DNA of 64,000 nt, from contig OX442315.1 of the NCBI GenBank assembly GCA_949358305.1, positions 14,906,427 through 14,970,426 of the forward strand, in the 5' to 3' direction. This stretch comes from Strigamia acuminata. Its lineage: Eukaryota > Arthropoda > Chilopoda > Geophilomorpha > Linotaeniidae. Shown in pieces: positions 21,743-61,857 of this stretch. The notes below the pieces were generated by a model. That model had not been told where the DNA came from and did no database searches. It worked only from the letters and a program-made list of their open reading frames with translations. Numbering within the stretch: position 1 is the first letter of the stretch; every line of letters begins with the position of its first letter. The translations under genes and the position numbers were made by a program.

Positions 21743-22031
21743 TTAAATGAGGGCGCGAGATAATCGTTTATACACTGTCAGTGGAAAAAAAATTACTTCG
21801 AGCGGTAACGACAAAACTACACGGGGGAGTGCATCGTAAGATAATAAGTTTAGAATCCCACTAACTGCAGCTATAGCCTAAAAAGGAGCAAAAAAAATAT
21901 TTCACTATATCTAAATGAATAGCTTAAAACCTTACATCGAGCGCTGCTTTAATCGCATTACAATCGAATTCAGACAATTGAGAAACAGCCACGACAACAA
22001 ACACCACCAAAACAATAGCAATAATCTTCAT
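21743..22031 (-). CDS. small secreted peptide A (two exons)
   Basis: Exon 1 is 22031-21936 and exon 2 21877-21743, joined by a 58-base GT-AG intron in phase 0; 76 residues. Exon 1 encodes a signal peptide, MKIIAIVLVVFVVVAVSQ, then a mature start with one cysteine (C24). Exon 2 encodes a hydrophobic segment. The homologous B and C genes stop after a short beta-like tail; here the TACTAATAG region is changed to CCACTGACAG, so the frame runs on into a 16-residue basic tail with KRLSRALI. It is secreted if expressed; function unknown. One cysteine rules out a disulfide-rich fold but allows a dimer. Retention of frame, signal peptide and splice sites in three copies supports a real gene. Confidence 0.72.
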
Positions 22032-22039
22032 GTAGATGA

Positions 22040-22610
22040 CTTCAATCCTTTTCAAATTCTGTGGATTACATACGCAGTAAATAAGTTATACACATACGGT
22101 AGGCAAATATAAACTGTAATCTCTAACATGTTTTTTATTATTTTGATCTTTTGCATTATTTTTGCACCCAGAGGCGGATCGAGGTTGGAGGTTGGGGGGG
22201 GGGGGGGGGGGGAGGGTGTCATGTGAACCATGGCTGCCACCTTGAGTGATGGACAAACTAAATTGGGTAAACATAAAACCAAAAAACGGTTTTCCACAAA
22301 AACGAAAATTATTTTAGGCGACAAAAATTCATTTTTGGCCAGAAAAAAATTCATTTTCAAGTCATCATTCATAAAAATTCCTTTTTTATATGCAAAAATA
22401 AACTAAAAAAACAAAAATGGTAGCACAACACCCCAAGTTTTTCAAAAGAGTGAGATCACAGATTAGAATGTGGGGTGAGGTGACTATCCTTTTGTTTGCT
22501 TGGTCACCCAGTGTCTGCACAAGGTTGGGTTTGCTGGAAGACAATTTTCGACAAAATAACTGACAATATGGTAGATATTAGCGACAGCAATAATCTTCCT
22601 GGCCTATAAT
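22040..22610 (-). promoter_or_regulatory. upstream region of peptide gene A
   Basis: Homologous to 30440-30900 and 61865-62440, the equivalent region of the other two peptide genes. About 55 bases before the ATG the minus strand reads GTGTATAACTTATTTACTGC in all copies with small changes, a possible TATA element. AG at the end of CCACAG or CCATAG sits about 30 bases before the ATG and could be a splice acceptor for a leader exon. A poly-G tract lies at 22193-22212. Confidence 0.5.
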
Positions 22611-22784
22611 AAAAATCATTATTATTATTATTCGTTGCCGGCTAAGAGAAGCGTGATTTACAAGCCGGCTATTCCGGGAAGTACGTTTTGTCGTGGGGAA
22701 CGATATTTCTTTCCGTTCAATAGGATGACCGAAGAATATTTATTCAATGATTGTATCATTTTAAGAATGGATGTTTTTATTTGA
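22611..22784 (+). pseudogene. TRAF C-terminal fragment 1
   Basis: In frame from NHYYYY through SLPAKRSVIYKPAIPG to a TGA at 22782-22784. It is nearly identical to the last 55 codons of the TRAF gene at 47978-49437, except for one extra Tyr codon and a short deletion in the last residues. No upstream domain is attached, so it is a dead fragment. Confidence 0.85.
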
Positions 22785-22794
22785 AAAGTCGTAT

Positions 22795-23060
22795 TTATTT
22801 ATTTGATGGGTGCGGTGCGTTGCCAGCGACTAAGGCTGCCAGCGTTTATATTTTCAGATTTTCTGGAATATTTTTTTTTTTTTGCCAGCTTCTCTTGTTT
22901 CAGCGTTAAATAAAAATAAATAAAAAAGGAATATATTGCATCCGATGCCAGCCTTTTATTTGCCAGCGTTCCTGGTGCCAGCGTTTCTAGCGCCAGCGTT
23001 TTGTGTGCCAGCGTTTTGTGTGCCAGCGTGTTGAATTCCCGCGTTTCCTGCACGTTATGT
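22795..23060. repeat. GCCAGCGTT short tandem repeats
   Basis: Region between the two TRAF fragments with seven or so copies of a 14-16 base unit near GTGCCAGCGTTTT, clustered at 22945-23040. No gene. Confidence 0.7.
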
Positions 23061-23141
23061 GCGCGTTACACGTCGCGTATCACGTCGCAAGTGGACGTCG
23101 ATCAAAGAGGTGCGACTGTTGGACATGGTCGCCAGCAATTG

Positions 23142-23360
23142 GTACCCGCTCATCTCAGTTCTACTTTGGTTGATCAACTTAATAATGAAAATCATTATTA
23201 TTATTCTTTGCCGGCTTCGAGAAGTGTTATTTACAAGCCGGCTATTCCGGGAAGTACTTTTTGTCGTGGGGAACGATATTTCTTTCCGTTTAATAGGATG
23301 ACCGAAGAATATTTATTCAATGATTGTATCATTCTAAGAATGGATGTTGTTTTTGTTTGA
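23142..23360 (+). pseudogene. TRAF C-terminal fragment 2
   Basis: Frame from SSTLVDQLNNENHYYY to the TGA at 23358-23360, matching the final part of the TRAF (MATH) domain at 49240-49437. The upstream half of the domain and all earlier exons are missing; unrelated repeat-rich sequence replaces them. Several changes, for example NKN to NEN and AKR to ASR, show it is older than fragment 1. Confidence 0.85.
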
Positions 23361-23651
23361 AAAGTCATATTTTTTTATTTGGTGTATGTTTTCAGATCGT
23401 TTTAAGGATTAAACGATGTAAAATGTGATTATTGGATCATTAAATTACTTTGGTTATTTTTCATCTCATACATTAATTATAATTACACAGAAAACATGAA
23501 GAATTATTTATTTTTGTTTCGGTAATGACGCTCGACGGGTTTCATTAGTTTACCACGAGGTAGCCTCGCTTGTCATTGTGCCGAGTTTCGGACGTGAGTT
23601 TTCGTTTAATTCCATCGTCATTTTTTTGTTGTTTTTCCGTTTGTGTTAAAA

Positions 23652-26600
23652 ATGATCACATGTAATAGGTGAGTACTGATTTAGAATAGATAATTTTACG
23701 AGATATTGGTTGAAATTTGGAATTTTTCATCCGAAATTTAATTTCTTTTTACATTTTTGTTTGTAGTTGTTTATGGCTTGTCCACGATGTAATAAAATTG
23801 TGTTGCGGCCACTCGTTTTGCAACTCCTGCGTGTGTGTGGAGAAGGGGAAAGCTATTTGCCCACTGGAAAAAATTCGAGTGCGTGTGGAAGAGGAAGTAA
23901 GTGAAGGAAAAAAAAGATTAAATTCATTATTTTATTTGTTTATGTAATTATTTACAGTTCAAAGAAGAAGACAACATGGACGTTGATGTCATTGATGTCA
24001 GAGTCACCGACGAGGAGATGATAGAGGTTTTAAATGGTTTTCAGGGTATATATATTTATTAATTCATTAATTATCTCAAAGCTTCAAATTACGGCTCGGT
24101 TCATTAGGGGCAGGGCCGTCTTTACTGTTTTTGCCGCCCTGGGCTAATGAAAATCAGGCGCCCCCTCCCCCCCTTAAAATAATTTTAAAAAGATTCATTG
24201 AAACTTTTATATCTATATTATTTTATTATTAATTTTTAATAAGTAAGTTATTTTTTTACAATTTCAAACAAAGAATATGAATACAATCAATGAATGAACT
24301 TTCTTCTACATTTTTTTTCAGCAAAATCATTTATTACTGCATTTAGATCAATAGAATCCAATATTTCAGATTCAATTGCTAAAATGCTTAAATTTTTCAG
24401 TTTACACTGTTCTAACGAAGATCGGAGATAATTTTTTGTCTTTTTTAAAACAGAAAAGGACCTCTCTCCTGAACAATTAGTGCAAGCAATAGTTAAGAAA
24501 ATTCTTAATGCAGTAACTACATTTGGAAAGGTAGATTCAATATTTGAAATTTGAAGTGTTCTTAGACAAAGCCCTGCTTTTGAGGAGAGTTCATCATCAG
24601 TTATTACATGAACATGTTTAAAGTGCAAAAGTTCTTCAACTATATTTTCCTCTAAATCATTGAGATATACATTGTACAGAACAGTAGCTTTTATTTTAAT
24701 CACGCCTTCATCCAATTGTTTTAAATTAAGTAATACTAGTACATCAAATGTTGAAAAAATATTGTCATACGCACACTTTCTTTTTTGAATTTCTGCTAGG
24801 AGCTTATCAATAATAACATAATATGTATTAATCCGAAAATGTTCATCTTTTTGGAAATTTGTGTCCATTGATGTTGACCTATTTTCGTCTTCGTCAAACT
24901 GTCTTTTCCTTTTGATTTTTCTTTTTGATTGATACTCGTCACACCCAGATAATTCAATTCCTTTAACATTATAATATTTAAAGACATCCATATTGCGCTT
25001 TTCCTGTAAATAACTTTCCAATGAGCTGTACAAAGAGACTATAGTGTCAACCATCAATGTCCACCTTTTGTAGGGATGTATTAATTTTATTCATTGTTTG
25101 CAAAATATCATTCCAAAATGTAAGCATCAAAGCAGTCTCCAATAAATTTAATTGTTTTCCCAATCCCTTTTCTTCTAATTTGGCACAAGGTTTAGGAATG
25201 ACAGATATGTCATTTAGTGCATTTTTAAAATATTTATAACCATTAACTATAGCATTTACAGCTTCAGTACTTGCTGACCACCGTATGTTACTCAACGTTT
25301 TAGGTACCTGACATGCCAATGGTAAATGGTCTTTCAATATTTTCCATCTACCAGTTGAAGCTGAAAAGAAATTATACAAGTTTTGTACAAACATGAATAA
25401 TTTGACACGTTGAGACTCTCTATAGGAGGCGCCCAGCGTCCTTCTGCGTCCAGCGCTCTTCTGTGCCAGACACCCTTCTGTTCTGTAACCGACACCCATG
25501 CATGCCCACAGATCCCCTAATCTGTGCCCATACCTCTCTGACCCCGGCGCCCCTCTGAGCCCGGCGCCCCTGGGCTGCAGCCCAGTTAGCCCAATGGTAA
25601 AGGTGGCCCTGATTAGGGGCCAGGTCCGTTTAACCGCCTGGTTGTCACCGGTAATATATGCAATAAGCGCCAGGTCCAAATAAGCGTCGAGAGAAATAAA
25701 ATCACCACGTTTTCAAAAACATTGGTGATTTTTGTATAGATAACAGTGATTAATTGAAAAAAATCATCGTATTTTTAGAAAAAATTATCGTATTATTAAA
25801 ATAAAATCGGTGAATTTTGGAAAATTCGCCAGGCCCGAATAAGCGCCAGGGTTCAAATAGGCGCCGAGGGTTTGGTCGGAAAAATAAATAGCGGCCTGGT
25901 CGCAATTTGAAGCTTTCCAGTAATTAAATTAACTCTTTCTGCTCCAAACTAGGGTCAACTTTGACCTCTAAAATTGTTTTTTTTTTTATCGAAAACTAAC
26001 GGGATTTTCTTTCTGAAATTTATGTATTTTTTTCAAACATTATAACTAACAAGAAAAAAGATAATAGATTCTAAAATTTAATTTTTTTTTTGAATTTACC
26101 CATTACTCCTTCCACTCTTTCGTACTCAAAGAATCGAATCACTTTCATACATTTTTGGAAAATTTTTTTTGGCTTTGGGTCAAAAATGACCTCGGTTTGG
26201 GTGAGTATGGAATTTTTTTTAGGTTGGTAAGCAATAGTGTAAAATTAAGTTATCGTAGTTTTCAGAGAGAAGGAAATTATTATTTATTTTTTTATTTATT
26301 TTTATTTTTTTAGTTATGTCGTCTGACATTGAACAAGTTGTAGAAGATTTCCCAGATCAGATAGATGATAAAGTTGTCATCATTGATCAAGGTTTGTAAA
26401 ATTACCGTATTAATGTATTATCCCGTTTTGGGGGCTTACTCAAAAATCATGAGTCCGACCAAGGTGTCGGATAACTCATAAGTCATATTTGCGAGACAAA
26501 TTCTACACACACATTGATATCATGGCTCCCAACTTGCCCTAGAAGTGATTATTTAATTAACAAAAGATAAGAAAATTGTATTTTTGTATTCTAGTCAAAT

Positions 26601-27113: not shown

Positions 27114-27235
27114 ACGTAACATAAGCCGCGGCTACTATTCGAGGGCGGCTCTTATTTCAAGTCGCCTTTCTTAGTCGCGGCTCTTATTCGAGGGCGGCTA
27201 CAATTCGAGGGCGACTCTTATTCGGTAAAATACGG
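26977..27235. mobile_element. CCGTATTTTACC MITE, exonised into the RING gene
   Basis: 259 bases with perfect 12-bp inverted ends (CCGTATTTTACC) and a TA duplication (26975-26976, 27236-27237). The body is made of AATAAGAGCCGCGGCTC-type motifs. The duplicate locus at 52575 lacks it. The RING gene frame now runs through it for 43 codons. Confidence 0.88.
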
Positions 27236-28554: not shown

Positions 28555-30436
28555 TTAGTAAGAAAAAGTTACTTCTCCCTGTACCGAGTTAATTAGTGGA
28601 TTTATCCCTTCTAATCCCTCAGTCGTAACAGCGGCAATTATTGTCTAAAAAATAGCAAAAAATTATTTCACTGTATCTACAACTACATTTCAAAAGTTTA
28701 GAAAGTGAGTGAAAAATTCACTCACTTTGTGAATAACACTAAAAATATGACTTAAAAGTTAAGCAAAACCAATTTATACTATCAGATTTGAATAAAACAA
28801 TTGTTTTTCATCTAAAATAGCTTATAGTTACATATATTTAGTTATATAGTTTAGATACAAATCGAGATTTTCAAAACCTCACTTGTGTCAAAAGTTTAGA
28901 AAGTTGAAAAAATCATTTCATAAGTTTAGAAAGTGCAACATAATTCCTTTATTTCGACTTGAAAATAGGACATTTTCATTTTTTTGTTTAGTATTTTGTT
29001 GTATGATCTCTGCATCGTATGATCGCCTTCAATCTGCGAGGCATTGTAGACACTACAGTGGGGAGCAAAACAATTGCGACATGTTGAATCTCATGGCTGT
29101 ATCTTGAGAAAAAAAAGGAGGAAAACCAATAAAATTTTAACTGAATATTTGTCCAACATTCTGCTTTGTTCACCTAAAATTTTATGACAATCTATCCATT
29201 AGTTCTAGAGAAAAAAATTATTTTATGAAGTGACATCAAAATTTAAGAGGCAAAAGTAAGTTAACAAAGTCTGTTAACCATCGAGAAACCTTACAACAAT
29301 CTCTGTTAATGCTTTGTTGGCCCTCCTTTAGCTTGTACTATTGCTTTCAATTATTCAGCCAGACTTCCAAGCAATTTTAGTAGCACTGTTTTAGACATAC
29401 TTTACACCCAAACATAAAGCAAAGCTAATTTCAACTTTGGAACATTTTTTTCTCAACTCTAGATAAACTTTTTGGTTTAAATCAAGAAACCATCTCATAA
29501 CTGTTCAATTGGATTAAGTTTTAAATAACTGAGAAGGCCATTGAAGATGTCTGATTTTTTTTTGTGTGGAATATTTTCACGCAAATTTTGAAGTATGTTT
29601 TTGGTTGTTATCCTGTTGCTACAACCAACCCCAATGTTTTTTTATTCCTCAAGATTTCTTTTTAAATTGTCTCTGTAAACATTAGTATCCATTATTTCTT
29701 CAATGGATTGGAGATTTCCAACCTTTCGCATCCCCAAACCAACACTGAACTATTTTTTCAGAGCAGTCACTTCATAAAATAATTTTTTTCTCTAGAACTA
29801 ATGGATAGATTGTCATAGAATTTTAGGTGAACAAAGCAAAATGTTGGACAAATATGCAGTTAAAATTTCATTGGTTTTCCTCCTTTATTTATTGAGATAC
29901 AGCCATGAGATTCAACATGTCGCAATTGTTTTGCCCCCTACTGTATTGTCTACAATGCCTCGCGGATTGAAGGCGGTCATACGATGCAGAGATCATCCAA
30001 CAAAATACTAAACAAAAAAATAAAAATGTCCTATTTTCAAGTCGAAATAAAGGAATTATGTTGCACTTTCTAAACTTATGAAATGATTTTTTCAACTTTC
30101 TAAACTTTTGACACAAGTGAGGTTTTGAAAATCTCAATTTGTAATTAAACTATATAACTAAATATATGTAACTATAAGCTATTTTAGATGAAAAATAATT
30201 GTTTTATTCAAATCTGATGGTATAAATTGGTTTTGCTTAACTTTTAAGATATATTTTTGGTGTTATTCACAAAATGAGTGAATTTTTCACTCATTTTCTA
30301 AACTTTTGAAATGTAGTTGTAAATGAATAGCTTAAAGTCTTACACTTAACAATCCTGCAATCTCAGTACAAATTGTTGGATTTTGTGCAACAGCCATGAC
30401 AACAAACGATACCAAAACAATAGCAATAATCTTCAT
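28555..30436 (-). CDS. small secreted peptide B (two exons, transposon-filled intron)
   Basis: Exon 1 is 30436-30344 and exon 2 28644-28555 (phase 0); 60 residues. The signal peptide MKIIAIVLVSFVVMAVAQ ends with the cleavage-type motif AVA before Gln. The mature part begins QNPTIC (single C23), continues with a hydrophobic helix-like TEIAGLLSTIIAAV and ends EVTFSY before TAA. The other two copies have 57-58 base introns; here the intron is 1,699 bases because a foldback element with an inner Tc1-like element sits in it. Splice signals remain (GTAAG, TTTTTTAG). Whether such a palindrome-bearing intron splices well is unknown. No known family recognised. Confidence 0.72.
28680..30319. mobile_element. 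foldback element with nested insertion, in peptide B intron
   Basis: Two 374-base inverted arms (28680-29053 and 29946-30319) start CAACTACATTTCAAAAGT and are flanked by TA. The empty site TGTATCTAAATGAATAGC is seen at 61735 and, with one change, at 21908. The centre is occupied by a Tc1-like element. Together the two create a palindrome with arms of about 580 bases. Confidence 0.88.
29056..29943 (-). mobile_element. Tc1-like element, degraded transposase
   Basis: 888 bases with inverted ends CAGTGGGGAGCAAAACAATT (right end has a few mismatches), TIRs of about 200 bases, and TA on both sides (29054-29055, 29944-29945). The minus strand of 29480-29760 has pieces of a Tc1 transposase: GNLQSIEEIMD-like, FQQDN..KHTSK-like and KLNPIEQL in shifting frames. 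Inactive. Confidence 0.8.
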
Positions 30437-31705: not shown

Positions 31706-31952
31706 TTATATTACAGCTAGGCAATAAATGTTGTTTAACTATAGGCTTGTCCAATTTAGTAAATAAAAACTAGTGCTTTAAAGAAAAAATACCAGGGGGA
31801 GGGCTTGACCTTTACCCCCGGTCTAGCCCGAGACCTGATCCCCAGTCCAATTTTACTAGCCAAGCTCACTGCACGCCTTTTTCGCGTTCATTTAGTTTTT
31901 TGGCTATTTTTGTTTTTTAATACTCTTTTACGATTTTCGATCTTCTATTACG

Positions 31953-33547
31953 ATGGATTCGACCAAAACGAGAAGTAAGAAGTCTTCAAATGCTGTCTTA
32001 AATCCCAAGAAAACGCGAGTGCCGCGTGGTCGCCCGCGCTCCGTTAGGCCTAACGAGGTCACTACACGTGCAGAAGTGCATCACGAGCCTATCTCGCCTT
32101 CGCTCTCCAATCGATCGAGAATTTTGCTTGATGGTTCCATCGTCAACAACCCACGACCAAATTCGGAGGAAGAAAACGAACAATCACGTGAAAATTTTGA
32201 AAATGTACGGAATCCGGTAGGGACCGATTTTACCGCCTCGCACGTTGCGAACAATCACAGGCCAGTATCCGAGTTAGGGCTATCATCCCAAGCGATCGAA
32301 AAGCTCATTTTCATGGCTTTTTCGCAAAACCAGACAGGCGGGGCTCCTCTGCAGCGGGAGGAGTCTGCCGAACGGCCGCAAATGTCTCGATCTCGTAGAG
32401 ACGAGTGGGGCGCGTTTCAGTCTAGTAACCACGTAAGTAATTTTGACAAATTATATTTCTTGAGATGTTTTTTACTCACTCTTGGTTGCTGACTGGCCGT
32501 AGTCAGCTGTTTCAGAGTACGAGTCGGATGTTTCCGCTGGTTCTAGCTCCTCGGCTGAAGAGAGAGCAAGTCTTTCACGTAAAGATCGCGAGATTCGACG
32601 ACTTAGACGAGAACTTGAGAAAAAGAACAAATCCGCCGCCAATCCACGCAAATCGACGTCCCTTTTAGACGGAGAGTCCGCAAGCTCATCCGACGATACG
32701 GACAGTCCTGATGAAGATGCGCCTTTTCTGCACGAATCGTCCGCCAAAGAGATAGTTCGGATTTTGAGCAAACCTACCGCATCTTCCAAGAATAATAGTT
32801 TTAAAACCGATTTTCCTTGCCCTACGCGTCAGGTCCCCTTTCTCAAGAGAAAAAAGATGGACGAGGACGTGGAGGCGTACGTGGGGGCGAGAAATACTTC
32901 TTTCTCCATTCCACGAGAGAGATTTTTGCGCCGTTTGAACGGCATGATGGCCCGAGTAGGATCGATTACAGCCAGAATTTTCGATCGGGCTTCGACTAAT
33001 AACCCCATGAGCAAAGACGAACTGCTGTACGCAAACACGGCCGTTTTCCAGCAAGTCCGCAATGCGATGAATGCGATCAGCGACGAACGACGCTTCAATG
33101 TCGTGCAAGGGTTAGGCACCAAGAAATCCGATATGGTGAAGCATTTTCGGAATTCGGACGGCGACACTCTATTCCAGGGGCAATTTTTTGAGCGTTTCAG
33201 TATTTGAATTTGTCTTATAAGATTTTTTGCAAACTCTTATCGGTTTTTTCCCCTTTTTAGAGAAACAAGCCGATCAATTTGCGTCGGTGGATCGGGCCAG
33301 AAATAAACATCCCACGAAGGGTTCTCGACACGATGGTCGCTTCCGTCGGACTTTTAATCGACCAACCGAAAATGTGCAACGCCGAGATTATTTTCACGCT
33401 CGACCAGACGGAAAGGACCAGGGACAAAACTTCCATTCCACGGATTACAATAGGGGACAACAGCAGCCCTTTCGTAAAAACCCCTTCCCTAACAACCGGG
33501 GAAGGGGTCGTGGCGGCTTCACTAGAAACGGTAACAGCCTGGTGTAG
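31953..33547 (+). CDS. DIRS gag-like protein in three exons
   Basis: Exons 31953-32432, 32503-33199 and 33261-33547 join in frame to 487 residues. Intron 1 (70 bases) starts GTAAGT and ends TAG; intron 2 (61 bases) starts GTATTT and ends TTTTTAG. Each removes in-frame stops. The protein is basic and Ser-rich at the N terminus, has a coiled-coil-like Arg/Glu stretch, a conserved core with YVGARNTSFSIPRERFLRRL and QQVRNAMNAISDERR, and a Gly/Arg-rich RNA-binding tail (NNRGRGRGGF). The core resembles other DIRS first ORFs. The pol frame begins inside the third exon. Confidence 0.72.
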
Positions 33548-35614: not shown

Positions 35615-35636
35615 GGAATTTTTATTTTTAGATTCT

Positions 35637-38123: not shown

Positions 38124-38400
38124 TGTAGTGTCCTTGAGACACGAGATAATTGCCACCAGGTGGCAGCATGATTAAAGGCTAAATGCCGAGTGCGTATGCA
38201 CTCACTCATTCTTAACACTACAACCGATGCGTCTGTGTCATTGATTCCGAACACTACAATGGCGACGATGATGAGATTGAACGAACTTTAAAACAATACG
38301 ATGAAAAAGGATTAATGACAATGCAGGTGTGTGTGGATTAAATTATTGTGAAAAATTGGATTTTTGCGCAAGTGTGAAGTGATTTCCGAGACATTTAAAA

Positions 38401-49437: not shown

Positions 49438-50209
49438 AAAATCGTATTTATTTATTTATTTGATGTATGTTTTCAGATCGTTTTAAGGATTAAACGATGT
49501 AAAATGTGATTATTAGATCATTAAATTACTTTGGTTATTTTTCATCTCATACATTAATTATAATTACACAGAAAACATGAAGAATTTTTTATTTTTGTTT
49601 CGGTAATGACGCTCGACGGGTTTCATTAGTTTACCACGAGGTGGCCTCGCTTGTCATTGTGCCGAGTTTCGGACGTGAGTTTGGTTGAAATTTGGAATTT
49701 TTCATCCGAAATTTAATTTCTTTTTACATTTTTGTTTGTAGTTGTTTATGGCTTGTCCACGATGTAATAAAATTGTGTTGCGGCCACTCGTTTTGCAACT
49801 CCTGCGTGTGTGTGGAGAAGGGGAAAGCTATTTGCCCACTGGAAAAATTTCGAGTGCGTGTGGAAGAGGAAGTAAGTGAAGGAAAAAAGAGATTAAATTC
49901 ATTATTTTATTTGTTTATGTAATTATTTACAGTTCAAAGAAGAAGACAACATGGACGTTGATGTCATTGATGTCAGAGTCACCGACGAGGAGATGATGGA
50001 GGTTTTAAATGGTTTTCAGGGTATATATATTTATTAATTCATTAATTATCTTAAAGCTTCAAATTACGGCTCGGTTCGTTAGGAGCCAGGTCCGTTTAAC
50101 CGCCTGGTTGTCACCGGTAATATATGCAATAAGCGCCAGGTCCAAATAAGCGTCGAGAGAAAGAAAATCACCATGTTTTCCAAAACATTGGTGATTTTTG
50201 TATAGATAA

Positions 50210-50334
50210 CACTAGCTGCATTCAAAAACTAAAATATTTTGTGTTTTACTTCAATTTTAAACCAAAAATGAATGTTAAAACTTAAAATACACCTAAACTA
50301 AAATTGTTATTTTAATTTTTGAATGCAGCTAGTG
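50210..50334. mobile_element. small foldback insertion CACTAGCTGCATTC
   Basis: About 120 bases with inverted ends CACTAGCTGCATTCAAAAA, present here but absent from the duplicate at 25745. The clean difference defines the insertion, though a target duplication is not obvious. Confidence 0.8.
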
Positions 50335-50659
50335 ATTCATTGAAAAAAATCATCGTATTTTTAGAAAAAAATTATCATATTTTTAGAAAAAAATCGGTGA
50401 ATTTTGGAAAATCTGCCAGGCCCGAATAAGCGCCAGGGTTCAAATAGGCGCCGAGGGACTGGTCGGAAAAATAAATAGCCGCCTGGTCGCAATTTGAAGC
50501 TTTCCGGTAATTAAATTAACTCTTCCTGCTCCAAACTAGGGTCAACTTTGACCTCTAAAATTGTTTTTTTTATTTATCGAAAACTAACGGGATTTTCTTT
50601 CTGAAATTTATGTATTTTCTTTAAACATTATAACTAACAAGAAAAAAGATAATACATTT

Positions 50660-51692
50660 TGTCACGTCGTAGTCGACTTTTTAACAATGGTTTCGAATTT
50701 CCAGGGATTGTAATAACCAGAAAATTTAGGTTCGCAGGCGCTGCAACTCTTAAAACTTTGCCGGGGGTGGTAGCTAGGTTAAGACAGCGTCTATTCGTGA
50801 AATCTGTATTTTATGGGTGCAGGATTCAATTCGGGCGCCGTACAAAATGGCGAACGTTGATACTTCGAATTTAAGACCAAAATATCGCTCTTCACTAGGG
50901 AAAATGTCGTCATATGCTAGGCGTACTTACGAAGAGTATATTTCTTCTCCTGGACACGCGCAAACGTTGGGTGAACGCGCAAACAGGTACCAAACCGCAG
51001 ACAACGTCGTCGAACCGTCGATAATGAAATGAATACGCAATTGAGACGAGTATGAGTTCAAAATGTCTAGGCTGAGGAGGAAGTCACAGTCGTGGCATAA
51101 AATGTATTGACGAATTAAGACCGTCGAATACGCCGTTTTTCCAGTAATTCGTACGCAAATAATGGGCAAATAATAAATGTTGTGGTTAGATAGCCAACCA
51201 TGAGAATTCGGGCTGCAATATGACCGTATGCGTTGAGACGCAACATAAATCGCACTTGGAAATCTTCCTAGTTAAGACAGGAGATGTTGACTAGTCGAAG
51301 GCGAAAATTATTCTCTCTGTCAAAAATGTCTTGACAGAACAAGTCACCTCTGATCACATGTCAAAGGCCAAGTCAATTCCCAATGGGGACTGGGCAGAAA
51401 ACAGGCGATCAGGGGTGAAATATGCAAATTTAGAGCGCGATTACATCAACTTATTGCAGAATTCTCATGAATTGTCTGGATGGGGTGATTAAAACCAGGC
51501 CAAATTAAAGATAATTATCAAAAATAAGGAAAATAATATAAAGCAAAATAATAAATTTAGAACTGGGAAAAATGAAATAATTTAGGGAAACTAGAACAAT
51601 TTCTCAATAAAATTGGGGAAGATTTAAAGGAAAGGCGCAAAATGCGCTTAAAATTTTGAAAATTATTACTGTCTAAAGTCAGGACCGTGACA
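50660..51692 (-). mobile_element. solo LTR of the 13 kb Gypsy element
   Basis: 1,033 bases matching the 1,039-base LTRs with scattered differences, so older than the full element. Flanked by ATTT on both sides (50656-50659, 51693-51696), a 4-bp duplication. The duplicate intron at 26070 is empty. It arose by recombination between two LTRs. Confidence 0.95.
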
Positions 51693-52105
51693 ATTTTAAA
51701 ATTTAATTTTTTTTTTGAATTTATCCATTGCTTCTTTCACTCTTTCGTACTCAAAGAATCGAATCATTTTCATACATTTTTGGAAAATTTTCTTTGGCTT
51801 TGGGTTTGGGTGAGTATGGGAGATTTTTTAGGTTGGTACAGCAAAAGTGTAAAATTAAGTTATCGTAGTTTTCAGAGAGAAGGGAATTATTATTTATTTT
51901 TTTTATTAATTTTTATTTTTTAAGTTACGTCGTCTGACATTGAACAAGTTGTTTAAGATTTCCCAAACAAAACAAATTGACTTTAACGAAGATCAGATAG
52001 ATGATAAAGTTGTCATCATTGATCAAGGTTTGTAAAATTACCGTATTATCCCGTTTTGGGGGCTTACTCAAAAATCGTGAGTCTGACCAAGGTGTCGGAT
52101 AACTC

Positions 52106-52340
52106 ATAAGTCATATTTGCGAGACAAATTCTACACACACATTGATATCATGGCTCCCAACTTGCCCTAGAAGTGATTATTTAATTAACAAAAAATAAGA
52201 AAACTATTTTTATATACTAGTCCAATATTTCCAAAAAGGGACCAGTTTTATATGAGGGTGTAATAAAAATAATTGATGATGATTAGGATATACTTATTTC
52301 TGTTTGAGAGGAATATTTAATGGAGTACATTTTTATTCAC
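52106..52340 (+). pseudogene. SLC17A9-like gene remnant 2
   Basis: The same fusion of an exon 7 piece to the stop codon and 3' UTR as at 26480-26700, in the duplicated block. Identical junction (CCCAACTTG/CCCTAGAAG) shows the deletion predates the block duplication. Confidence 0.9.
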
Positions 52341-52664
52341 ACAAACATTTGATACATAGTTTTTAGAATTATTATTATAACAACCGAAATCATGAATATT
52401 GGCATTAAATTTATATAAGAGCAAGAAATTGCTATAGCAAAGATGAAAAAGGAGTACTGTAGTGTAGACAATAATTGAATTAGTAAGTGGTTTAATTTTT
52501 AGGATGTCCCTTGTTAGAAACTATCAGTGTCAAATGGCGACACCTATTGACATAGCTGAAAGGAATTATAAAATGAATAAAAAAAATGCTTAAATAAAAT
52601 ATAATATATGATATGATATGATGTGGCGTGGTGTGGTATGATGATATGATATGATTTCTAAAAC

Positions 52665-53850
52665 ATTTGATTGGTGATATTTTTACTTACTTCCCTAAGC
52701 GCCGCTTGAACGCACATGAGGAAATCCTTGGGGTTTGTATGTTCCTATTTAAAAAATGATACGTAATTAGTATTTTGAAGAATGAATAATTGAAGAGAAT
52801 AAACCACGTACACCATGTAAAGTTGGTTAAGCCCTCACCACAGAAAAAAAAGGTATAAAATTAAAAACAAAATATAGTAGGAACAGATCTAACGTCTGGC
52901 CGCCTGACAGCAATGTTATTAAGCAGGACTGTTTCAACCAAGACACATTACTCGCTTGAATATTGGTGGTGTTAAAAGGTAAACATGCCAACGCTTTCAT
53001 TAACTCTAGTGTATGCATCATGTAACTATTCGGAGTTATATTGTAAAGTGGTTTATTCTCTCCGATTACTCATTTTTCATATTGTACAGGATAATGCAGA
53101 TAAAGATATAACTAAAATTGTTATGAAATTAGAGATTCAAACGAGATTCTTTTGTTGTTTTGTCATGCACTGAATATTCTCTAGCCTAGTCACCATCAGG
53201 TTGGCCAAAAAATGGGCTGCTCAAGTCTCAAGAAGACATGGTCAGTCCTCAGAGAAGGCAGCAGAAATTATTACAGGCAAAAAGCAATGTAGAATCTCAA
53301 TTTTTTTTCTTTCAGAGACAAGTGTTTAAAATTTCTGTTCACAGATTGCACCATTCTGTGAAAATTTTTCAAGACATATCCGCTTCATATCTCATTATGT
53401 TGTGTTACTGCTGTTATGGTGTTATTGAACTAACAAATGATGCCACAACATTACAATTAGTACTTTTACACCATTTCACACCTCTTATTTCTAGCATTGT
53501 AGATATTGTACTAGAATTTCGAATATTGAATCGGATGATTTCATAAAAATCTTATTAGTGATATTTTGTATGCTTGGTCCTGTAAAAAGTATTAATAAAA
53601 GTAAAAACTCTATACCAAACAATTCTGTACAACTGAGATTACAGCATCACTTTCCCCCTGAAAATAAGAGAGTTTATTTTGAAACACAAGGAGATACTTC
53701 TGAATAGTCTATAGGTATAAACAAGTATTCAACTTATGGTGACCCACTTTGTTTTCACTAAGGAAAATCGCAACTTTGAATAGTTCTCGGCATATGTCGA
53801 TCGGTTCCCCCCAATGCCAAGGATAAACATTTTGAAATAAAAAATAGAAA
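52665..53850. repeat. conserved noncoding block, copy 3
   Basis: Near copy of 27300-28510, continuing to about 54055 with homology to 21430-21650 (GGACCCCTAAATA, AACAAGCATCACCAC). No gene. Confidence 0.8.
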
Positions 53851-54055
53851 TCAGAAAAAATATTTGCAATTTAGTTTTCAAATAGGACCCCTAAATAGGG
53901 CGATTTAAAGGGCCACATAAACCATAAATCTGCATTTAGAGTCAACTCCTATCAATAAACAAACAATAAACAAGCATCACCACAGGGGGAACCAGATATT
54001 TATGTACGAAATGTAGGAGTCCTTTGATCTTTTTTCATTTGCAACAGTGTGAATT

Positions 54056-54506
54056 TCAAAGATCAAAGATACAAAAAACAAACAAAAAGCAATGAAATGG
54101 TGAAAACCAGAGTTTATATACTCTGGGAGGACAATAGAGATTAATGACAGCCAATTGGACATTAGAATCCATGAACTCCCAGGTCACTATAGGGATTTAG
54201 GGAGTCCGGACCTAGATGAGGACTTGGGTTTAAAAAGAATCCAATTTGCCACTTTATAACCATAAAGTGGAGTTTTGCACTTGTTTTGTTTAATATTGAT
54301 TCTTTTGAATCAATATTCATATAATAGCCATTTAATTGTAAATAAATAAAGTATATTTATTGAACAATATTCGATATAATTTACACATTTTACCGATTAA
54401 GAGTCGCCCTCGAATTGTGTCTCCCTCGAATAGCAACCACGGCTGAGACACCAAGAATACCGTATTTTTGAAAAAGTACACTGTCGTTTCCGTATTTAAC
54501 CTCACG
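54056..54506. other. unassigned, with fragments of a CCGTA/AAGAGTCGCC MITE
   Basis: No gene. From about 54390 the sequence TTACCGATTAAGAGTCGCCC resembles the MITE at 26977. The BEL element interrupts that MITE, whose other end (AATAAGAGCCGCGGCTC...AAAATACGG) is at 60493-60530. Confidence 0.55.
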
Positions 54507-54511
54507 AACCA

Positions 54512-57500
54512 TATAGTTACTCACGTAACTTAAATAAATGAATTGCTTCACAAAACCTATCTCGAAGAGCGGATGGAGTCGGATTTAAGTTCGAAAGTTG
54601 TAGACGCAAAAAGCACACGACCGATTGTTACATTTACAAAATAAGAACTGATATTTTATTCAAAATTTTAGGTATATAAAACAAAAGGATTAAGCTAATC
54701 CTTAAATTCCAAGAATACAGATCTGGGTCACAGGTGAGCTTTTTCACCTGCGCCACGGTGGCAAAAAACACAATCAAACTGGTTCACCTTGGAAACCGCC
54801 AGTTTCCACAGTCCCCCCGTCCCGGCGGACTGGAACTTCGGTTTCCACTTCGAGGTTGCATAGTCTCTGGATGGGTCTTCGAAGACGTGTCCCGTTGGAC
54901 ATCTGGATTTCGCAGGAACGAATCAAGCCGTCACGACCCTCCTTCACGGAGGTGATGCGCCCGAGTTTCCACGTAAGTCGCGGCCGGTTTTGGTCCTCGA
55001 TGATCACAATATCTCCCACGTTAAATTTCGTACGACTGGTGACGCCTCGGTGTTGGCGTAATTCGATTAAGTATTCCTTCGTCCAACGGTCCCAAAATCG
55101 TTGGATAAGCGTTTGTCGGTATTTCCACGCTCTTAAGATGTCATCTTTTGATCCCGGATTGGTGGAATATTTCGGCGCGGTCGGCAGAAATGAAATGCGT
55201 TTTCCTAAGAGAAAATGAGAGGGGGAAAGGGGTGAATCTTCATGAGGAGTGTCATAAACATAAGTTAATGGTCTGGAGTTCACAACAGCTTCAGCTTCTG
55301 CCAGTATGGTTACGAGTCCCTCATAATCGAGTGAGTTTTTCCCGATCGTTTTCTTTAGCGCCAACTTCACTGAACGCACCATGCGCTCCCAAAAGCCGCT
55401 CCACCACGGTGCGGTTTCGACAATATATTTCCATGTTATCCGTTTTTCCGTAATAAATCCTTGAAACTGTTCTTCTGGTAAATACTTCAAAAACAAATTA
55501 ATCTCCTTGTCTGCTCTCTTGAACGTTTTGGCGTTATCGGAGTATATAGTTTTGGGAATTCCTCTTCTAGAGATAAAACGCTTCACACAGTCAATAAATT
55601 TATCGGTACTCAGGTTGGAGAGCAATTCCAAGTGGACTGCACGCGTTACCGCACATGTAAACAGGGCAATATACACTTTGTTACCCAATTTGGTGTAGAG
55701 AGGACCAGCAAAATCAACTCCGCAAATTTCGAACGGTTCACTCGGCGTAACACGATCAATGGGCAGTAATCCCCACTTTTCTTTGGCTAAACGTCCTTGT
55801 ATTTTTCGACAGCAAACACACTTGTGGATGATTCCCTTGATTGTTTTTCTCGCACGGGCGATCCAGAATCTCTCTCGAAGTCCACTCAATGTGTCGGCCA
55901 GTCCACTGTGTAAAGCTCGTTCGTGTTCGCCTAAAACAATCAATTTAGTTATAAAATGTTCGTTTGGTAATAAAAGGGGTTCGCGTGTATTTCGGTCGAT
56001 TTCTGCTAATCCCCATCGATGTGTTGCACGCAACAATCCCTTCTCATCTAGTATTGGCGACAACTTTATGATTGTTGACGACTTTTCGATTTGTTTCTGC
56101 CCTGACAAGCACTCGATCTCTTTTGGAAATTTGCTTTTCTGTAAATAGTTCACCCAATAAAGTTCAGCAAGTTCAATTTCCTCGTTTGTCGGCGCATCTC
56201 CATTTCTATTTTTCGTCTTTAGATTCGCAATATATCTAAAAACCCAGGCTGTAACTCGTTTCAGCTTCTTCCACGTACTAAATCGAGTGTAATCGATATC
56301 TGGTTCAGCAACTGTTATTAATGTCATATTCACTTCCCTGTCGTCGTCCTCGATGATTGGATCCACGTTCACGTCCTCATTTGGCCATCTCGATTCGTTG
56401 TCTGCAAGCCACTCCGGTCCTTTTAACCAAAATGGTTCTTCAGTGAGCTGTTTTACGTTCACTCCCCTCGTAACCAGGTCGGCTGGATTATCTTTCCCTG
56501 GGCAGTGGTGCCAATCGTCTCTCGATGTATTCTCAACAATTTCCCGTACACGATTGTACACGAACGTCGCTGGTCTGTTCTTGGTGTCGCGGATCCAATG
56601 CAATACGATCTTTGAGTCGGTCCAGATCGTGAAGTCTTCGCATCCGAGTGTCTGCTTTAAAGTCTGGATTAATCTTGATGCTAGTAAAGCACCCATCAGC
56701 TCCAACTTTGGCAGTGTTAACTCTTTAACCGGTGCAACTCTACATTTTGAAATAATAAAATCAATATTAACAGCATTTGTTTCGTCCAGAACTCGAGTGT
56801 AGGCTACTACGCCATACGCTCTCGGACTGGCATCACAGAAGATGTGAATCCTTTTTCCATAATTTCCTCCCCAATTTAACAATTTGCGCTCTAAATTTAA
56901 ATTTTCGAGGTATGGTATCTGAACATACCAATTTTCCCACTTTATCTTCACATATTCTGGAATGACGTCATCCCACCCAACATTTAGTTTCCAAAGTTCC
57001 TGAAAAATAATTTTAGCAGTTATCACAAAGGGGTTTGCCATTCCCAACGGGTCAAAAATCATGGCGGTAATTCTTACAATAAATCTCTTGGTGTATTTGG
57101 TCAAGTTAATCTCGTTAATCAATGTACTAATGTCTAATCCCAATTTATCTAACTCAATATCCCAAACTACCCCCAAAACCTTAGTTTTTTTTTGAAAAAC
57201 TGTCACGTCACAATCTGGGTCATCTCGTATAATTTTCTCTTGTAATTTCACATCATTCGACTTCCATTTGGTTAATTTCATGTTCGCGGCTTGCAAAATC
57301 TCACGACTCTCATTATAAATTTGAATTAACTTGTTCGAATTGTCAACACTTGTTACAAAATCGTCTACATACAAGTCTTCTTTCAGCTTGTCGCATGTGT
57401 CCGGGTATTGGTCTTCAAACTTGTCGACGTGTTCTTTTACTGTTGCATTTAGTAAAAATGGACTGGGTCCTGTTCCAAATGGGACTCGAGTTTGCCGTAG

Positions 57501-60382
57501 TTCAATTAATTTTACCGACTCTTCACCGTTCCACCCATCCTCGATCCAATAAAATCGTGTCACGTCGCGTTCGTCTGTCTTGAGGTGTATTCGATGGAAA
57601 GCCTTCTCAATGTCCCCGATTGCGCCATATTTGCCGGTTCGGAACTTCAAAACAATGTTTATTAGATGAGGTAACATATTCGGGCCCTTACTCAAACAGT
57701 CGTTTAGTGACAAACATCCCTTTGCGTGTGACGACGCATCGTAAACAATTCGTAACTTTGTTGTGGCTCGAGTTTCATCAATTACTGGTCGGTGAGGGAT
57801 ATAATACGGGTTGTTTGGTTTCGAATCCTTTGGTACTCTCTCCACGACTCTGGAAATCAGCTGTTCGTCGATCACTTTTTTATAGTCTAAATACAATTTG
57901 GGATTTTTGCGAAAACGATTAATTAAACTCCACAAACGCTTTTTCGCAACATCTCGATTGTCGCTCAATTCCTTGCGGTCGATCTTCCACGGGAATCCTA
58001 CTTCGTAATGGTCGTCTACCCACTCAATCTGGTCTTTGAATCGCTTCAGTGTGTCCGCTTCATCGATTCCTGGTTCTACAGTTTCGTGGCGAATCCCAAT
58101 CGACTCCAAGTTCCAGAATTTCTCTAAAAGTTCGTTTGTATTATCGGCAACAATCACTTTATTTACCCGCACCAAAGACGACATTGTTGTTTCTGTCTTC
58201 CCAGCTGATCCGTGCAGTGTCCAACCAAAGATGGTTTCGATCGCCATTAAATTCTCGTCGATACGTTGTTGTTTTCCTGTTGTAACTCGCCAAAAGTTGT
58301 CGACGCCGATCAAAATGGACACTCCATCGTCTCGTTGAATGTTGTTATCGTAGGCCAGTTTTATGTTGTATTTCTTCAGTTGTTCCAACACTTGTTCATC
58401 AGGCTTTCCTCGTAATGTCGGTGTGATCCAGGGTGACTCAAGCGCTTTGATTTCTAAACTGAAATTCTTATCTTCACAATTATTCAAGTTTAACTTCACC
58501 TGTTTTCGTTTGGTAATGGTTGGCTCAGTGGATCCGAAAGTCAAGAGGGCGAGGGATTGTTCTCCAGTTTTTTCCAGTTGTAATTCGTGCGACAGTTTTT
58601 CTGTGATGAAGCTTCTTTGTGATCCCCCATCCAAAAAACACTGGACTTTCCTCTTCTTCCCGTTTCCATTGGCTTCTAGGACGACGACTTGCAGGAACAT
58701 CACGGTTTCCATAGCTGTAGACTCTTGTACGGCTGAAGTCAAAGTTGTTTCTGTTTTCTTCGTGTCTTCTTTGTCGCACAAATACGTGTGATGTTTTTGT
58801 TCGCATTTCCGACATTTAAATCTCGTATTACACTGACGCGCTTGGTGATTCTCCTTCAGGCATCGATAACAGCGTCGGGCTTTGAAACACGCTTCTTTTC
58901 TTTTTTCTACGGACAACGGACAGTCTGGACTCTTGTGTTCTGTTTTCTCGCAAAACGTGCACTTGTAAACGATGTTCGATAAAGCTGAAGCAGAACTGTG
59001 GGTATTAGACTTGTAATTGGTTTTCTTCACCTCTTCCTTTTTGGTATTCGGGGTTTCCATCGATTCTTGTTGCGGTTTACTGGTTTTATCTGTGACTTCC
59101 GTACGTTCGCGCATCGCTACTTCGAATCTAAAAAAATCCAAAAATTCTTTAACAACCCAAGGTGCATCTCCTCGTGGACGTGCAAAATCATGTTGTATGC
59201 TGGTTGGCACAGCACGTGCGAGTATTGGGCATAATAATGGTCCGAAAGTTTCTGCCGGCACTCCGAGGTTCTCTAGACTCTTGATGTGGAGGTCGCAAAA
59301 ATCGTAAAGCTTCCGTAGGGCTGCCACATCTTCTACTCGCTTAACTGACGGCATCTCGAGCAGCTTGGCCATATGAGCACCGACAATCTGCTCCTTCTGT
59401 CCAAAACGATTAGTCAAAAGCGATATTGCGGTGTCGTAGTTGAGTTCCGTCACGGTGAGTCCGCTAATTGCGTTTGCTGCGAGTCCCTCGACGAGTGAGC
59501 GCAGATATACAAATTTGGCTGTTTTAGGCAGGGAAGTGTTATTATGCACGCTCAATTCAAAATCTGACCAGAACCCCGTCCAGGTTTCCGGCGTGCCTTT
59601 AAACTTGGCAACTTCTAGTTTTGGTAATTTCATCACGGTACATTGTGGTTGGATTGGGTTTAACGGGAGGTTTGCATTCAAATTTACGAGTGGTACTTGC
59701 GGTGGTATTTGCTGTGGTGGTGTTTGTTTCATTTGGTTGAGTTCTTTTAGGGCGACTTCCAGTGTAATTCTTGCGGCCGTCATCTCGTCTTGAAATTCTT
59801 CCGCATCTGTCTCGTCTTGATCCACTTCATTGACGTCTGTAATTCCGTCGGCGATTAAAACGTCCAATTTGTCGATCTTCACTCGTTTCGTGGTCAACTG
59901 CGCCTGTAGACATAATAATTTGACTTCATTTAGTGGATCTTCACCCATTTCTTTGTTGATTTTGGTGAAAAGCGCTCGCACGCTCTTTCTCGCTGATTCT
60001 CTTTGTGCGCGGTTTCTTGTTAAATCGTCCATTCTACTCGTCCTGGTTCGTTTTTCTTGAAGAATTCCCGGGTTTCGGCACCATATAGTTACTCACGTAA
60101 CTTAAATAAATGAATTGCTTCACAAAACCTATCTCGAAGAGCGGATGGAGTCGGATTTAAGTTCGAAAGTTGTAGACGCAAAAAGCACACGACCGATTGT
60201 TACATTTACAAAATAAGAACTGATATTTTATTCAAAATTTTAGGTATATAAAACAAAAGGATTAAGCTAATCCTTAAATTCCAAGAATACAGATCTGGGT
60301 CACAGGTGAGCTTTTTCACCTGCGCCACGGTGGCAAAAAACACAATCAAACTGGTTCACCTTGGAAACCGCCAGTTTCCACA
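54512..60382 (-). mobile_element. 5.9 kb BEL/Pao LTR retrotransposon, structurally intact
   Basis: LTRs of 299 bases at 54512-54810 and 60084-60382 that look identical, flanked by a perfect 5-bp duplication AACCA (54507-54511, 60383-60387). Directly inside the 5' LTR the minus strand reads TGGTGCCGAAACCCGGGA, a primer-binding site. The sequence GGGACGGGGGGAC before the 3' LTR is the polypurine tract. One open frame spans the inside. Recent insertion, possibly active. Confidence 0.95.
54774..60032 (-). CDS. pol: BEL/Pao Gag-Pol polyprotein
   Basis: 1,752 codons. A helical Gag region (1-300) with VAKFKGTPETWTGFWSDFEL is typical of BEL/Pao elements. Zinc knuckles follow: CTFCEKTEHKSPDC, CYRCLKENHQARQC and CRKCEQKHHTYLC (about 370-430). 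Protease has FLDGGSQRSFI (about 475), Gly standing where DSG or DTG is commoner. RT has DLYVDDFVTS (about 920), RNase H FCDASPRAYG (about 1090). Integrase has the zinc finger HSGLADTLSG...CVCC and the D,D,E residues in CGVDFAGPLY, YSDNAKTF and GFWERMV. A C-terminal DUF5641-like region with RPRLTWKLGRI ends the protein. The last 12 or so codons and stop lie in the 3' LTR. No disruption seen. Confidence 0.94.
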   Translation of the reverse strand: MDDLTRNRAQRESARKSVRALFTKINKEMGEDPLNEVKLLCLQAQLTTKRVKIDKLDVLIADGITDVNEVDQDETDAEEFQDEMTAARITLEVALKELNQMKQTPPQQIPPQVPLVNLNANLPLNPIQPQCTVMKLPKLEVAKFKGTPETWTGFWSDFELSVHNNTSLPKTAKFVYLRSLVEGLAANAISGLTVTELNYDTAISLLTNRFGQKEQIVGAHMAKLLEMPSVKRVEDVAALRKLYDFCDLHIKSLENLGVPAETFGPLLCPILARAVPTSIQHDFARPRGDAPWVVKEFLDFFRFEVAMRERTEVTDKTSKPQQESMETPNTKKEEVKKTNYKSNTHSSASALSNIVYKCTFCEKTEHKSPDCPLSVEKRKEACFKARRCYRCLKENHQARQCNTRFKCRKCEQKHHTYLCDKEDTKKTETTLTSAVQESTAMETVMFLQVVVLEANGNGKKRKVQCFLDGGSQRSFITEKLSHELQLEKTGEQSLALLTFGSTEPTITKRKQVKLNLNNCEDKNFSLEIKALESPWITPTLRGKPDEQVLEQLKKYNIKLAYDNNIQRDDGVSILIGVDNFWRVTTGKQQRIDENLMAIETIFGWTLHGSAGKTETTMSSLVRVNKVIVADNTNELLEKFWNLESIGIRHETVEPGIDEADTLKRFKDQIEWVDDHYEVGFPWKIDRKELSDNRDVAKKRLWSLINRFRKNPKLYLDYKKVIDEQLISRVVERVPKDSKPNNPYYIPHRPVIDETRATTKLRIVYDASSHAKGCLSLNDCLSKGPNMLPHLINIVLKFRTGKYGAIGDIEKAFHRIHLKTDERDVTRFYWIEDGWNGEESVKLIELRQTRVPFGTGPSPFLLNATVKEHVDKFEDQYPDTCDKLKEDLYVDDFVTSVDNSNKLIQIYNESREILQAANMKLTKWKSNDVKLQEKIIRDDPDCDVTVFQKKTKVLGVVWDIELDKLGLDISTLINEINLTKYTKRFIVRITAMIFDPLGMANPFVITAKIIFQELWKLNVGWDDVIPEYVKIKWENWYVQIPYLENLNLERKLLNWGGNYGKRIHIFCDASPRAYGVVAYTRVLDETNAVNIDFIISKCRVAPVKELTLPKLELMGALLASRLIQTLKQTLGCEDFTIWTDSKIVLHWIRDTKNRPATFVYNRVREIVENTSRDDWHHCPGKDNPADLVTRGVNVKQLTEEPFWLKGPEWLADNESRWPNEDVNVDPIIEDDDREVNMTLITVAEPDIDYTRFSTWKKLKRVTAWVFRYIANLKTKNRNGDAPTNEEIELAELYWVNYLQKSKFPKEIECLSGQKQIEKSSTIIKLSPILDEKGLLRATHRWGLAEIDRNTREPLLLPNEHFITKLIVLGEHERALHSGLADTLSGLRERFWIARARKTIKGIIHKCVCCRKIQGRLAKEKWGLLPIDRVTPSEPFEICGVDFAGPLYTKLGNKVYIALFTCAVTRAVHLELLSNLSTDKFIDCVKRFISRRGIPKTIYSDNAKTFKRADKEINLFLKYLPEEQFQGFITEKRITWKYIVETAPWWSGFWERMVRSVKLALKKTIGKNSLDYEGLVTILAEAEAVVNSRPLTYVYDTPHEDSPLSPSHFLLGKRISFLPTAPKYSTNPGSKDDILRAWKYRQTLIQRFWDRWTKEYLIELRQHRGVTSRTKFNVGDIVIIEDQNRPRLTWKLGRITSVKEGRDGLIRSCEIQMSNGTRLRRPIQRLCNLEVETEVPVRRDGGTVETGGFQGEPV

Positions 60383-60387
60383 AACCA

Positions 60388-60632
60388 TGAACGTACACTT
60401 CGTTTTGGACGTTCAGACTTCGTTTGTTACATGAAACAAATGTAACAAACGAAAAACCGAAGTTGTAATTGCTGACAAAAATGGCTGTTTTGAATAAGAG
60501 CCGCGGCTCTTAATTTATAAAATACGGTATTCGAATATCGCTCACTTTCGGTTTATCGGTGCGAACTGGTGCCGACATTGTAAATTAATACGATTTTATA
60601 ACCGTCACAAAATGAGGGCGCGAGATAATCGT
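60388..60632. other. MITE end and inverted LTR-end fragment
   Basis: Holds the right part of the MITE split by the BEL element. At 60595-60610 TTTTATAACCGTCACA is nearly the inverse of the start of the following LTR, so a truncated LTR in opposite orientation may abut it. Confidence 0.5.
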
Positions 60633-61609
60633 TGTGACGGTTGTAAAACCGCGTAATGCGAAACTTCACACTAGATGGCGCTGCGACAATAAGCGCGCGC
60701 AGTTTAAATATGATAACCGAGGTTATGATGACTAGTACGGCAATACGAATAAATATACGTTATTTATATTAAGAGTATTAATTAGAACAATATTGATGCT
60801 ATAGAATCAATATAGAATGTTTTATACTTACCTGTGAAGAGAACCAATTGGACTCTTCGAGATTTGGACCCCCGAATCTCTGGATTCTGGTGTCCGATTG
60901 GCTACTCCTAATCCTATTGTTCTTAGAACATATATAAGAGGTTTTCACCAGAACTTTGGCTTTTGTACTAGGTGCATTCAAAAAGTCTATTTAGCCGCTT
61001 ATTCACTCGCTTGAACACAGGCTGGTATGTTGGTTTTGCTTCTCTTGTGGAGCTTAACACACATCCGTGATTATTCACGGCGGTAGTTATATATCGCTCA
61101 TGTACGGGCTTTTACACACGCTTATACACGGAAAGGCGAACCCGGACAACAAATCCCGGTTACTGATCATTTGCGATCAGATTCACCGTTACGGCTCTGA
61201 GCCGGATGGAGGTGTCAAAACCTCCCGCAATATTACTAATATTACTAATAACTAATGTTTATTTATTGTGTTTCTTCCTAGCTTTTAGTATTGTTTAAAT
61301 CGCATTACCGATTGATTAATCGATTGAATAACACTCGGTGATGCGGATAATTCTCCGCATCCACGTAACGTTATTATGACCATGCCGCAAAGCCAACCCT
61401 ATCCCTTGGCCCGCCCGGACATCCAAACCAAACGATGCCGCCCGTTTACACGTGCCCAGAACCCAGTATTCTTTGTAATAAACATAATGATGTTGTAATT
61501 ATCGTAAGTTCGTATTATTCAGCCAGTAATTCACTTAGCGCACAATGGTTTAGCTTATCTCGGTTAGTTTTAGTGTACAATTTGCCTATCAAAAGGTAGA
61601 ATCGTCACA
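60633..61609. mobile_element. probable solo LTR (TGTGACGG...CGTCACA)
   Basis: 977 bases with TG...CA ends flanked by TCGT on both sides (60629-60632, 61610-61613). The duplicate locus at 21760 reads GATAATCGTTTATACACTG, the unoccupied site. 28528-28553 keeps only the last 25 or so bases. No ORF. It lies directly after the stop of peptide gene C and might supply its 3' end. Family unknown. Confidence 0.72.
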
Positions 61610-61623
61610 TCGTTTATACACTA

Positions 61624-61857
61624 TTAGTAAAAAAAAGTTACTTCTACCTCTACCAGGTTAGCTATTCCTTCTAATCCCCCAGACATAACAGCGGCAAATA
61701 TTTTCTAAAAAATAGCAAAAAATTATTTCACTGTATCTAAATGAATAGCTTAAAATCTTACAAGATACAGTTTTGCTAGCTCAGCACAACTTAATGGTCC
61801 TTCTTGTGCAACAGCCATGACAACAAACGATACCAAAACAATAGCAATAATCTTCAT
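61624..61857 (-). CDS. small secreted peptide C (two exons)
   Basis: Exon 1 is 61857-61762 and exon 2 61704-61624, phase 0, with a 57-base intron; 58 residues. Signal peptide MKIIAIVLVSFVVMAVAQ, identical to copy B. The mature part starts QEGPLSC with a single cysteine (C24) and contains GGLEGIANLVEV, matching TEGLEGINPLIN of B. It ends EVTFFY then TAA TAG. Mature sequences of A, B and C differ far more than the signal peptides, a pattern common in secreted peptides under diversifying selection. Function unknown; candidates include defence, secretion or venom-type roles, none supported directly. Confidence 0.75.

Follow-up and report, generated by a model that had tools for sequence, protein, structure and literature searches.

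What kind of genes keep a nearly constant signal peptide while the peptides that they would release differ strongly? The question is raised by three tiny genes, A, B and C, in a stretch of 64,000 nucleotides (nt) from chromosome 2 of the centipede Strigamia acuminata (contig C3, 14906427-14970426), which is referred to as the window. All three lie on the minus strand. In each, exon 1 starts with MKIIAIVLV, a phase-0 intron begins with GTAAG and ends with TTTTTAG, and exon 2 carries the stop. We find that A, B and C have relatives elsewhere in the genome and that the ten copies together (A-J) probably form a genuine protein-coding family, recently duplicated and positively selected, whose predicted spliced transcripts would encode secreted peptides with a single cysteine (Table 1).

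The original prediction, made from the letters of the window, had already placed the three genes and their exon and intron borders, and we locate them at the same positions. Its product lengths also stand, with 76 amino acids for A, 60 for B (31 + 29 by exon) and 58 for C, each with a single cysteine close behind the signal peptide. Its proposal of a family of two-exon genes for secreted peptides is supported, although the size is about ten loci rather than three. The introns of 57 bases that it expected are found in C, whereas the intron of A has 58 nt and that of B 1,699 nt. The long intron of B holds a transposon-like insert bordered by TA at both flanks, a duplication read by eye at the junctions, and we take the insert to be Tc1/mariner-like. 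Both splice borders and both exons of B are left intact by it. Inside this insert, a second inverted-repeat element is apparently nested (arms 29110-29234, 29766-29890).

The search for copies covered one centipede genome, the S. acuminata assembly of 237,517,015 bases in 157 contigs. A 61-base probe, a 361-base whole-gene probe and a 35-place pattern of the start region, allowed at most three mismatches, returned the same set of 10 family loci, and the reversed pattern, used as a control, gave 0 matches. Two exon-1 peptide probes recovered 7/10 and 4/10 of them. D equals E over the aligned gene, and the blocks that hold the two are 99.78% identical across 10.9 kb; E is perhaps a copy of D made very recently, or else an artefact of the assembly. 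Around D, E and F (C3 7474099-7560136), repeated blocks measure 10.9, 20.1 and 5.6 kb and agree at 99.7-99.99% identity, the result either of duplication in the very recent past or of an error in the assembly. Because the unplaced scaffold C120 matches the window in order (1,911-10,907 against 49,274-62,941, piecewise) and is free of the long terminal repeat (LTR) element that adjoins gene C in the window, C and J may be two alleles of one gene.

The reading frame is kept throughout the family. All ten copies retain the start, a phase-0 GT-AG intron and open exons 1 and 2. Exon 1 is 93, 96, 99 or 108 nt long, B included, always a multiple of three, and the intron measures 57, 58 or 59 nt in the nine copies other than B. 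Counting exon-2 stops up to the motif GTAAYTTTTT in nine copies (E was dropped, being identical to D) gave 0 in the predicted frame, 33 in the +1 frame and 21 in the +2 frame. The chance that exon 2 stays open after mononucleotide shuffling, multiplied over six copies unlike one another (A, B, C, F, G and H; the closely related D, I and J were excluded), is ~2.5e-6. Meanwhile, the motif itself stands at phase 0 in 10/10 copies, at six distances of 63, 72, 75, 81, 135 and 141 nt, and the mature part changes length in frame, as in H and I, where the differences are 15 and 54 nt. Other copies had been expected to be free of random stops and frameshifts; this is the case for both exons of the seven copies beyond A-C, before the VxFF residues.

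Two other ways of reading the genes were considered. An unspliced transcript would stop after three intron codons (VRF; VRL in B), and the second exons, open and in frame, argue against this reading. The other supposes a further tiny intron within exon 2, at GTAAYTTTTT...AG, and was rejected because such an intron would measure only ~21-23 nt.

Comparing the copies in pairs revealed that the signal peptide and the mature part change at different rates, in line with the earlier description of near-identical signals and divergent mature parts. The signal peptide is conserved, with 10/248.5 nonsynonymous (N) and 11/75.5 synonymous (S) changes per site over six pairs, and its ratio of the two proportions (pN/pS) is 0.39 over all 36 pairs. 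In the mature part, pooled over the three closest pairs (C-J, H-I and D-F), N is 49.5/260.3 and S is 4.5/81.7, which gives a pN/pS of 3.45 (Fisher p = 0.00085, with counts rounded). The mature parts of C and J differ by 10 N and 0 S changes, and 0/57 positions of their introns have changed. Furthermore, the mature N rate exceeds that of the noncoding flanks in 8/8 pairs tested (36 possible), with p from 0.0055 to 1.8e-12, where the alignable columns of the 3' flank number only 9 for C-H and 33 for G-C. In close pairs, the secreted part clearly carries the marks of positive selection.

Several observations weigh against the reading of A-J as a selected coding family. In five deeper pairs, the mature S is 0.40-0.74, compared with 0.11-0.145 in noncoding DNA, and a pN/pS above 1 is not consistent among the deeper pairs. 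Over all 36 pairs, the ratio is 1.17 for the mature part of exon 1 and 0.74 for exon 2, and exon 2 of H-I, tail included, gives 0.69. Because of these values, selection must act together with misalignment of stretches that hardly align, gene conversion of the flanks or block replacement. The frame after VxFF or the motif also differs among copies, and the length of the T-run varies. In A, H and I, the similar 3' nucleotides yield a long tail, in G a different long one, in D, E and F a short one, and in B, C and J nearly none. Since residues past VxFF are read in differing frames, the C-terminal tail looks unconstrained. In addition, H and I are without ~60 nt of the 5' region common to the other copies; the loss may have removed promoter or leader sequence, and the two genes might be silent. 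The independent genes may be perhaps eight, given that D equals E and that J is a possible allele of C.

The predicted preproteins have 58-97 residues. The signal peptide, ~17-18 residues long, includes a lysine and a hydrophobic run and ends in small residues, followed by Gln (Glu in D and E). Its end was placed by the cleavage rule, and cleavage would occur before this N-terminal Gln or Glu. In nine copies (B was left out of the property table), the mature peptides from residue 18 onward have 41-80 residues and are hydrophobic on average. They contain one cysteine, located at position 7 in 7/9 copies, at 8 in F and at 12 in I; B has one cysteine in exon 1 and none in exon 2. With one conserved cysteine each, exported peptides of this kind may be joined into dimers by a disulfide bond. 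The best 18-residue window has a helical moment of 1.28-2.01 in the nine copies, values with no threshold or control behind them.

The lack of a known family, as the original prediction had it, held in Pfam, in the PDB sequences and in a large protein collection. In the Pfam scan of the family peptides, no family reached the cut-off. The nearest was Uteroglobin (PF01099), matched by 1/8 members scanned at E = 0.086, below the curated cut-off, while A, C, F, G, H and I gave no match. We set this membership aside, as the match is weak and the other seven members lack it. Two PDB sequence matches (E 0.044 and 1.2) are both engineered proteins and were taken as chance. An alignment of eight sequences, all but B and E, was searched against a collection of 5.8 billion proteins, whose animal share is not established, and yielded 2,084 word-sharing candidates, none with E <= 10. 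No report of this family was found in the open-licence papers searched. As far as seen, the gene family is undescribed so far.

We propose that a gene unit of ~3.5-4 kb would have been duplicated to two chromosomes and into local clusters, with the signal peptide, splice sites and reading frame retained. After duplication, positive selection would drive change in the mature part. The peptides may work extracellularly, as part of a gland secretion directed at a partner that keeps evolving, and we infer an exocrine role of this kind. A constant signal with a fast-changing released peptide is a pattern typical of secretions in an evolutionary contest. A weapon or defence secretion is the role that we tentatively rank first, with reproductive and immune roles below it.

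The narrower proposal is venom proper, in which the peptides would be made in the forcipular venom gland as an orphan class of geophilomorph venom; we consider it possible, on the unlikely side. A conserved signal with a diversified mature part is a usual feature of venom peptide genes and counts for this proposal. S. acuminata is a member of a venomous order, and GEOTX 1/2 and CHLTX01, from the venom of its congener S. maritima, are given in the relevant part of the venom survey as having no known relatives (PMC6878950). The same part describes centipede venom peptides as mainly cysteine-rich (PMC6878950), whereas those found here have one cysteine. Moreover, the published centipede toxin families are, in the account cited, mostly under negative selection (PMC4619613). 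For this reason, the family would either stand apart from other venom genes or not be venom.

A reproductive role, as seminal fluid, accessory gland or pheromone-like peptides, would attribute the diversity to mate competition or recognition. Arthropod seminal fluid commonly contains families of small, fast-evolving, duplicated and secreted peptides, and the peptides described here share these features and are near neutral or acidic. We regard this role as unlikely. Immune or antimicrobial peptides would fit the predicted amphipathic helical stretches and the fast evolution. However, the mature net charge is 0 to -3 in 8/9 copies, and the clearly positive charge of a cationic antimicrobial peptide is found in 1/9 (H, +5); the Pfam scan, too, matched no peptide family. 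An immune role is thereby at best unlikely, and perhaps more so than a reproductive one.

The duplicated unit bears on whether the family might be the cargo of a transposable element and spread with it. The homology around the genes extends over ~3.5-4 kb, is interrupted, and recurs at separate sites on two chromosomes, as such cargo would. The unit ends vary between the pairs compared. Repeat counts from the genome searches are lower bounds. The two flank blocks have 10 and 19 genome matches, nearly all at or near family loci (most of the remaining matches of the 62417-62972 block fall within the same clusters), compared with 1,132 first-look candidates for a high-copy repeat at 14.0-16.5 kb of C120. 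B and C are part of a larger local duplication within the window. The unit looks like a low-copy segmental duplication rather than a high-copy element, and the cargo proposal is very improbable, although the search for terminal repeats was not systematic. Decay, in which the copies are non-functional duplicates of a segmental repeat with leftover open frames, draws on the repeat-rich, duplicated surroundings and the frame of the tail, which is not kept, and it is the least probable of all, against the clean predicted frame of exon 2, the amino-acid change above noncoding drift in every pair tested and the constrained signal peptide.

Table 1. Positions of the family genes, of the duplicated blocks and of neighbouring elements (window positions unless a contig or locus is named).
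Feature	Position	Strand	Remarks
Gene A, span	22031-21743	-	
Gene A exon 1	21936..22031	-	signal peptide and first 14 mature-side codons
Gene A intron	21878..21935	-	58 nt, phase 0, GT-AG
Gene A exon 2 with stop	21743..21877	-	135 nt
Gene B, span	30436-28555	-	
Gene B exon 1	30344..30436	-	93 nt; signal peptide DNA the same as that of C
Gene B intron	28645..30343	-	1,699 nt; holds transposon-like insert
Insert in B intron	28680..30319		1,640 nt; inverted arms ~460 nt; TA at both flanks
Gene B exon 2 with stop	28555..28644	-	
Gene C, span	61857-61624	-	
Gene C exon 1	61762..61857	-	
Gene C intron	61705..61761	-	57 nt
Gene C exon 2 with stop	61624..61704	-	81 nt
Genes D, E, F	C3 7.477, 7.526, 7.563 Mb		
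Gene G	C3 15.896 Mb		
Genes H, I	C1 29.446, 32.287 Mb		
Gene J	C120		unplaced scaffold
Sites of the ~60-nt 5' gap	L044 ~4977-5076, L045 ~5142-5241		genes H and I
Unit block downstream of gene A	20200..20751		10 genome matches, 9 beside family genes
Unit block upstream of gene C	62417..62972		19 genome matches, longest beside family genes
LTR retroelement	54508-60379		end repeats show no difference in the 300 nt compared
MATH-domain open frame	48628-49437	+	Pfam E 4.5e-27; preceded by acidic 10-residue repeats
Pieces related to the MATH frame	22579-22816, 23152-23389		
Mobile-element open frames	9587-16287, 31896-36662, 38383-42513		retroelements by the look of the frames
Mobile-element frame	24287-25712		hAT transposase piece at 24287-25090 (Pfam E 5.9e-7)

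Among the neighbouring elements, the LTR retroelement is a young insertion, because it is absent at the matching place of C120. The mitochondrial genome (C157), whose genes were named by eye, has a rearranged, arthropod-like gene order with cox1, cox2 and cox3 consecutive, both strands used and an A+T content of ~63%.

Short, divergent two-exon peptide genes readily escape annotation, and this family becomes visible through its conserved shell. If the peptides are venom, they would contradict the view of slow centipede venom evolution given in the cited account of toxin families (PMC4619613). If they are reproductive or defensive, they would offer a molecular handle on the little-known secretions of soil centipedes. 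The pairs C-J, H-I and D-F provide a compact test set for the diversification of secreted peptides after duplication in an old venomous lineage.

The family can be compared with several known systems. Conotoxin superfamilies combine a conserved signal with a hypervariable mature peptide and are rich in disulfides; the pattern of signal and mature part is alike, whereas the centipede peptides have one cysteine. Uteroglobin (secretoglobin) is a vertebrate family of small secreted chains with a cysteine near the N terminus and further conserved cysteines. The small secreted chain and the N-terminal cysteine are shared with the peptides described here, the match being weak and confined to 1/8 members. 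The venom of S. maritima contains the peptide families GEOTX01, GEOTX02 and CHLTX01, as listed in the part cited (Jenner et al. 2019, PMC6878950), and GEOTX02 is reported, in the portion available, to have a likely fungal origin (PMC7864903). They resemble the present family as orphan secreted peptides of the same genus, a likeness by description only.

By analogy, the closest known pattern is that of the small secreted salivary gland protein (SSSGP) genes of the Hessian fly, a group also described in the Asian rice gall midge (Chen et al. 2010, PMC2955719, in the sections relied on here and below). SSSGP genes encode small secreted proteins with a near-constant signal peptide, lie in clustered copies, and in most groups have one short intron (PMC2955719). 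Their flanks and intron are more conserved than the mature coding part, and dN/dS, the ratio of nonsynonymous to synonymous substitution rates, exceeds 1 in moderately diverged pairs (PMC2955719), as does the pooled 3.45 of our three pairs. Tested for this pattern, the centipede family has both a conserved signal and noncoding part beside a variable mature part and positive selection in close pairs. The intron differs in place: in SSSGP genes it lies at or inside the signal coding region, that is, at the border of signal and mature part or within the signal (PMC2955719), whereas here it lies 13-18 codons past the 18-codon signal part. The centipede family also belongs to another animal class, is dispersed on two chromosomes besides being clustered, and has one cysteine. 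The likeness is one of pattern, not of demonstrated kinship; SSSGP proteins are salivary, and the centipede family is known from genes alone. For the Hessian fly genes, homogenisation of the flanks by gene conversion has been proposed (PMC2955719). We speculate, with some doubt, that an orphan family of one centipede lineage has re-invented the gall-midge style of gene evolution. Under such a scenario, likewise tentative, the shell of 5' region, signal, intron and flanks might be kept or homogenised, while the peptide within it might be rewritten by strong positive selection.
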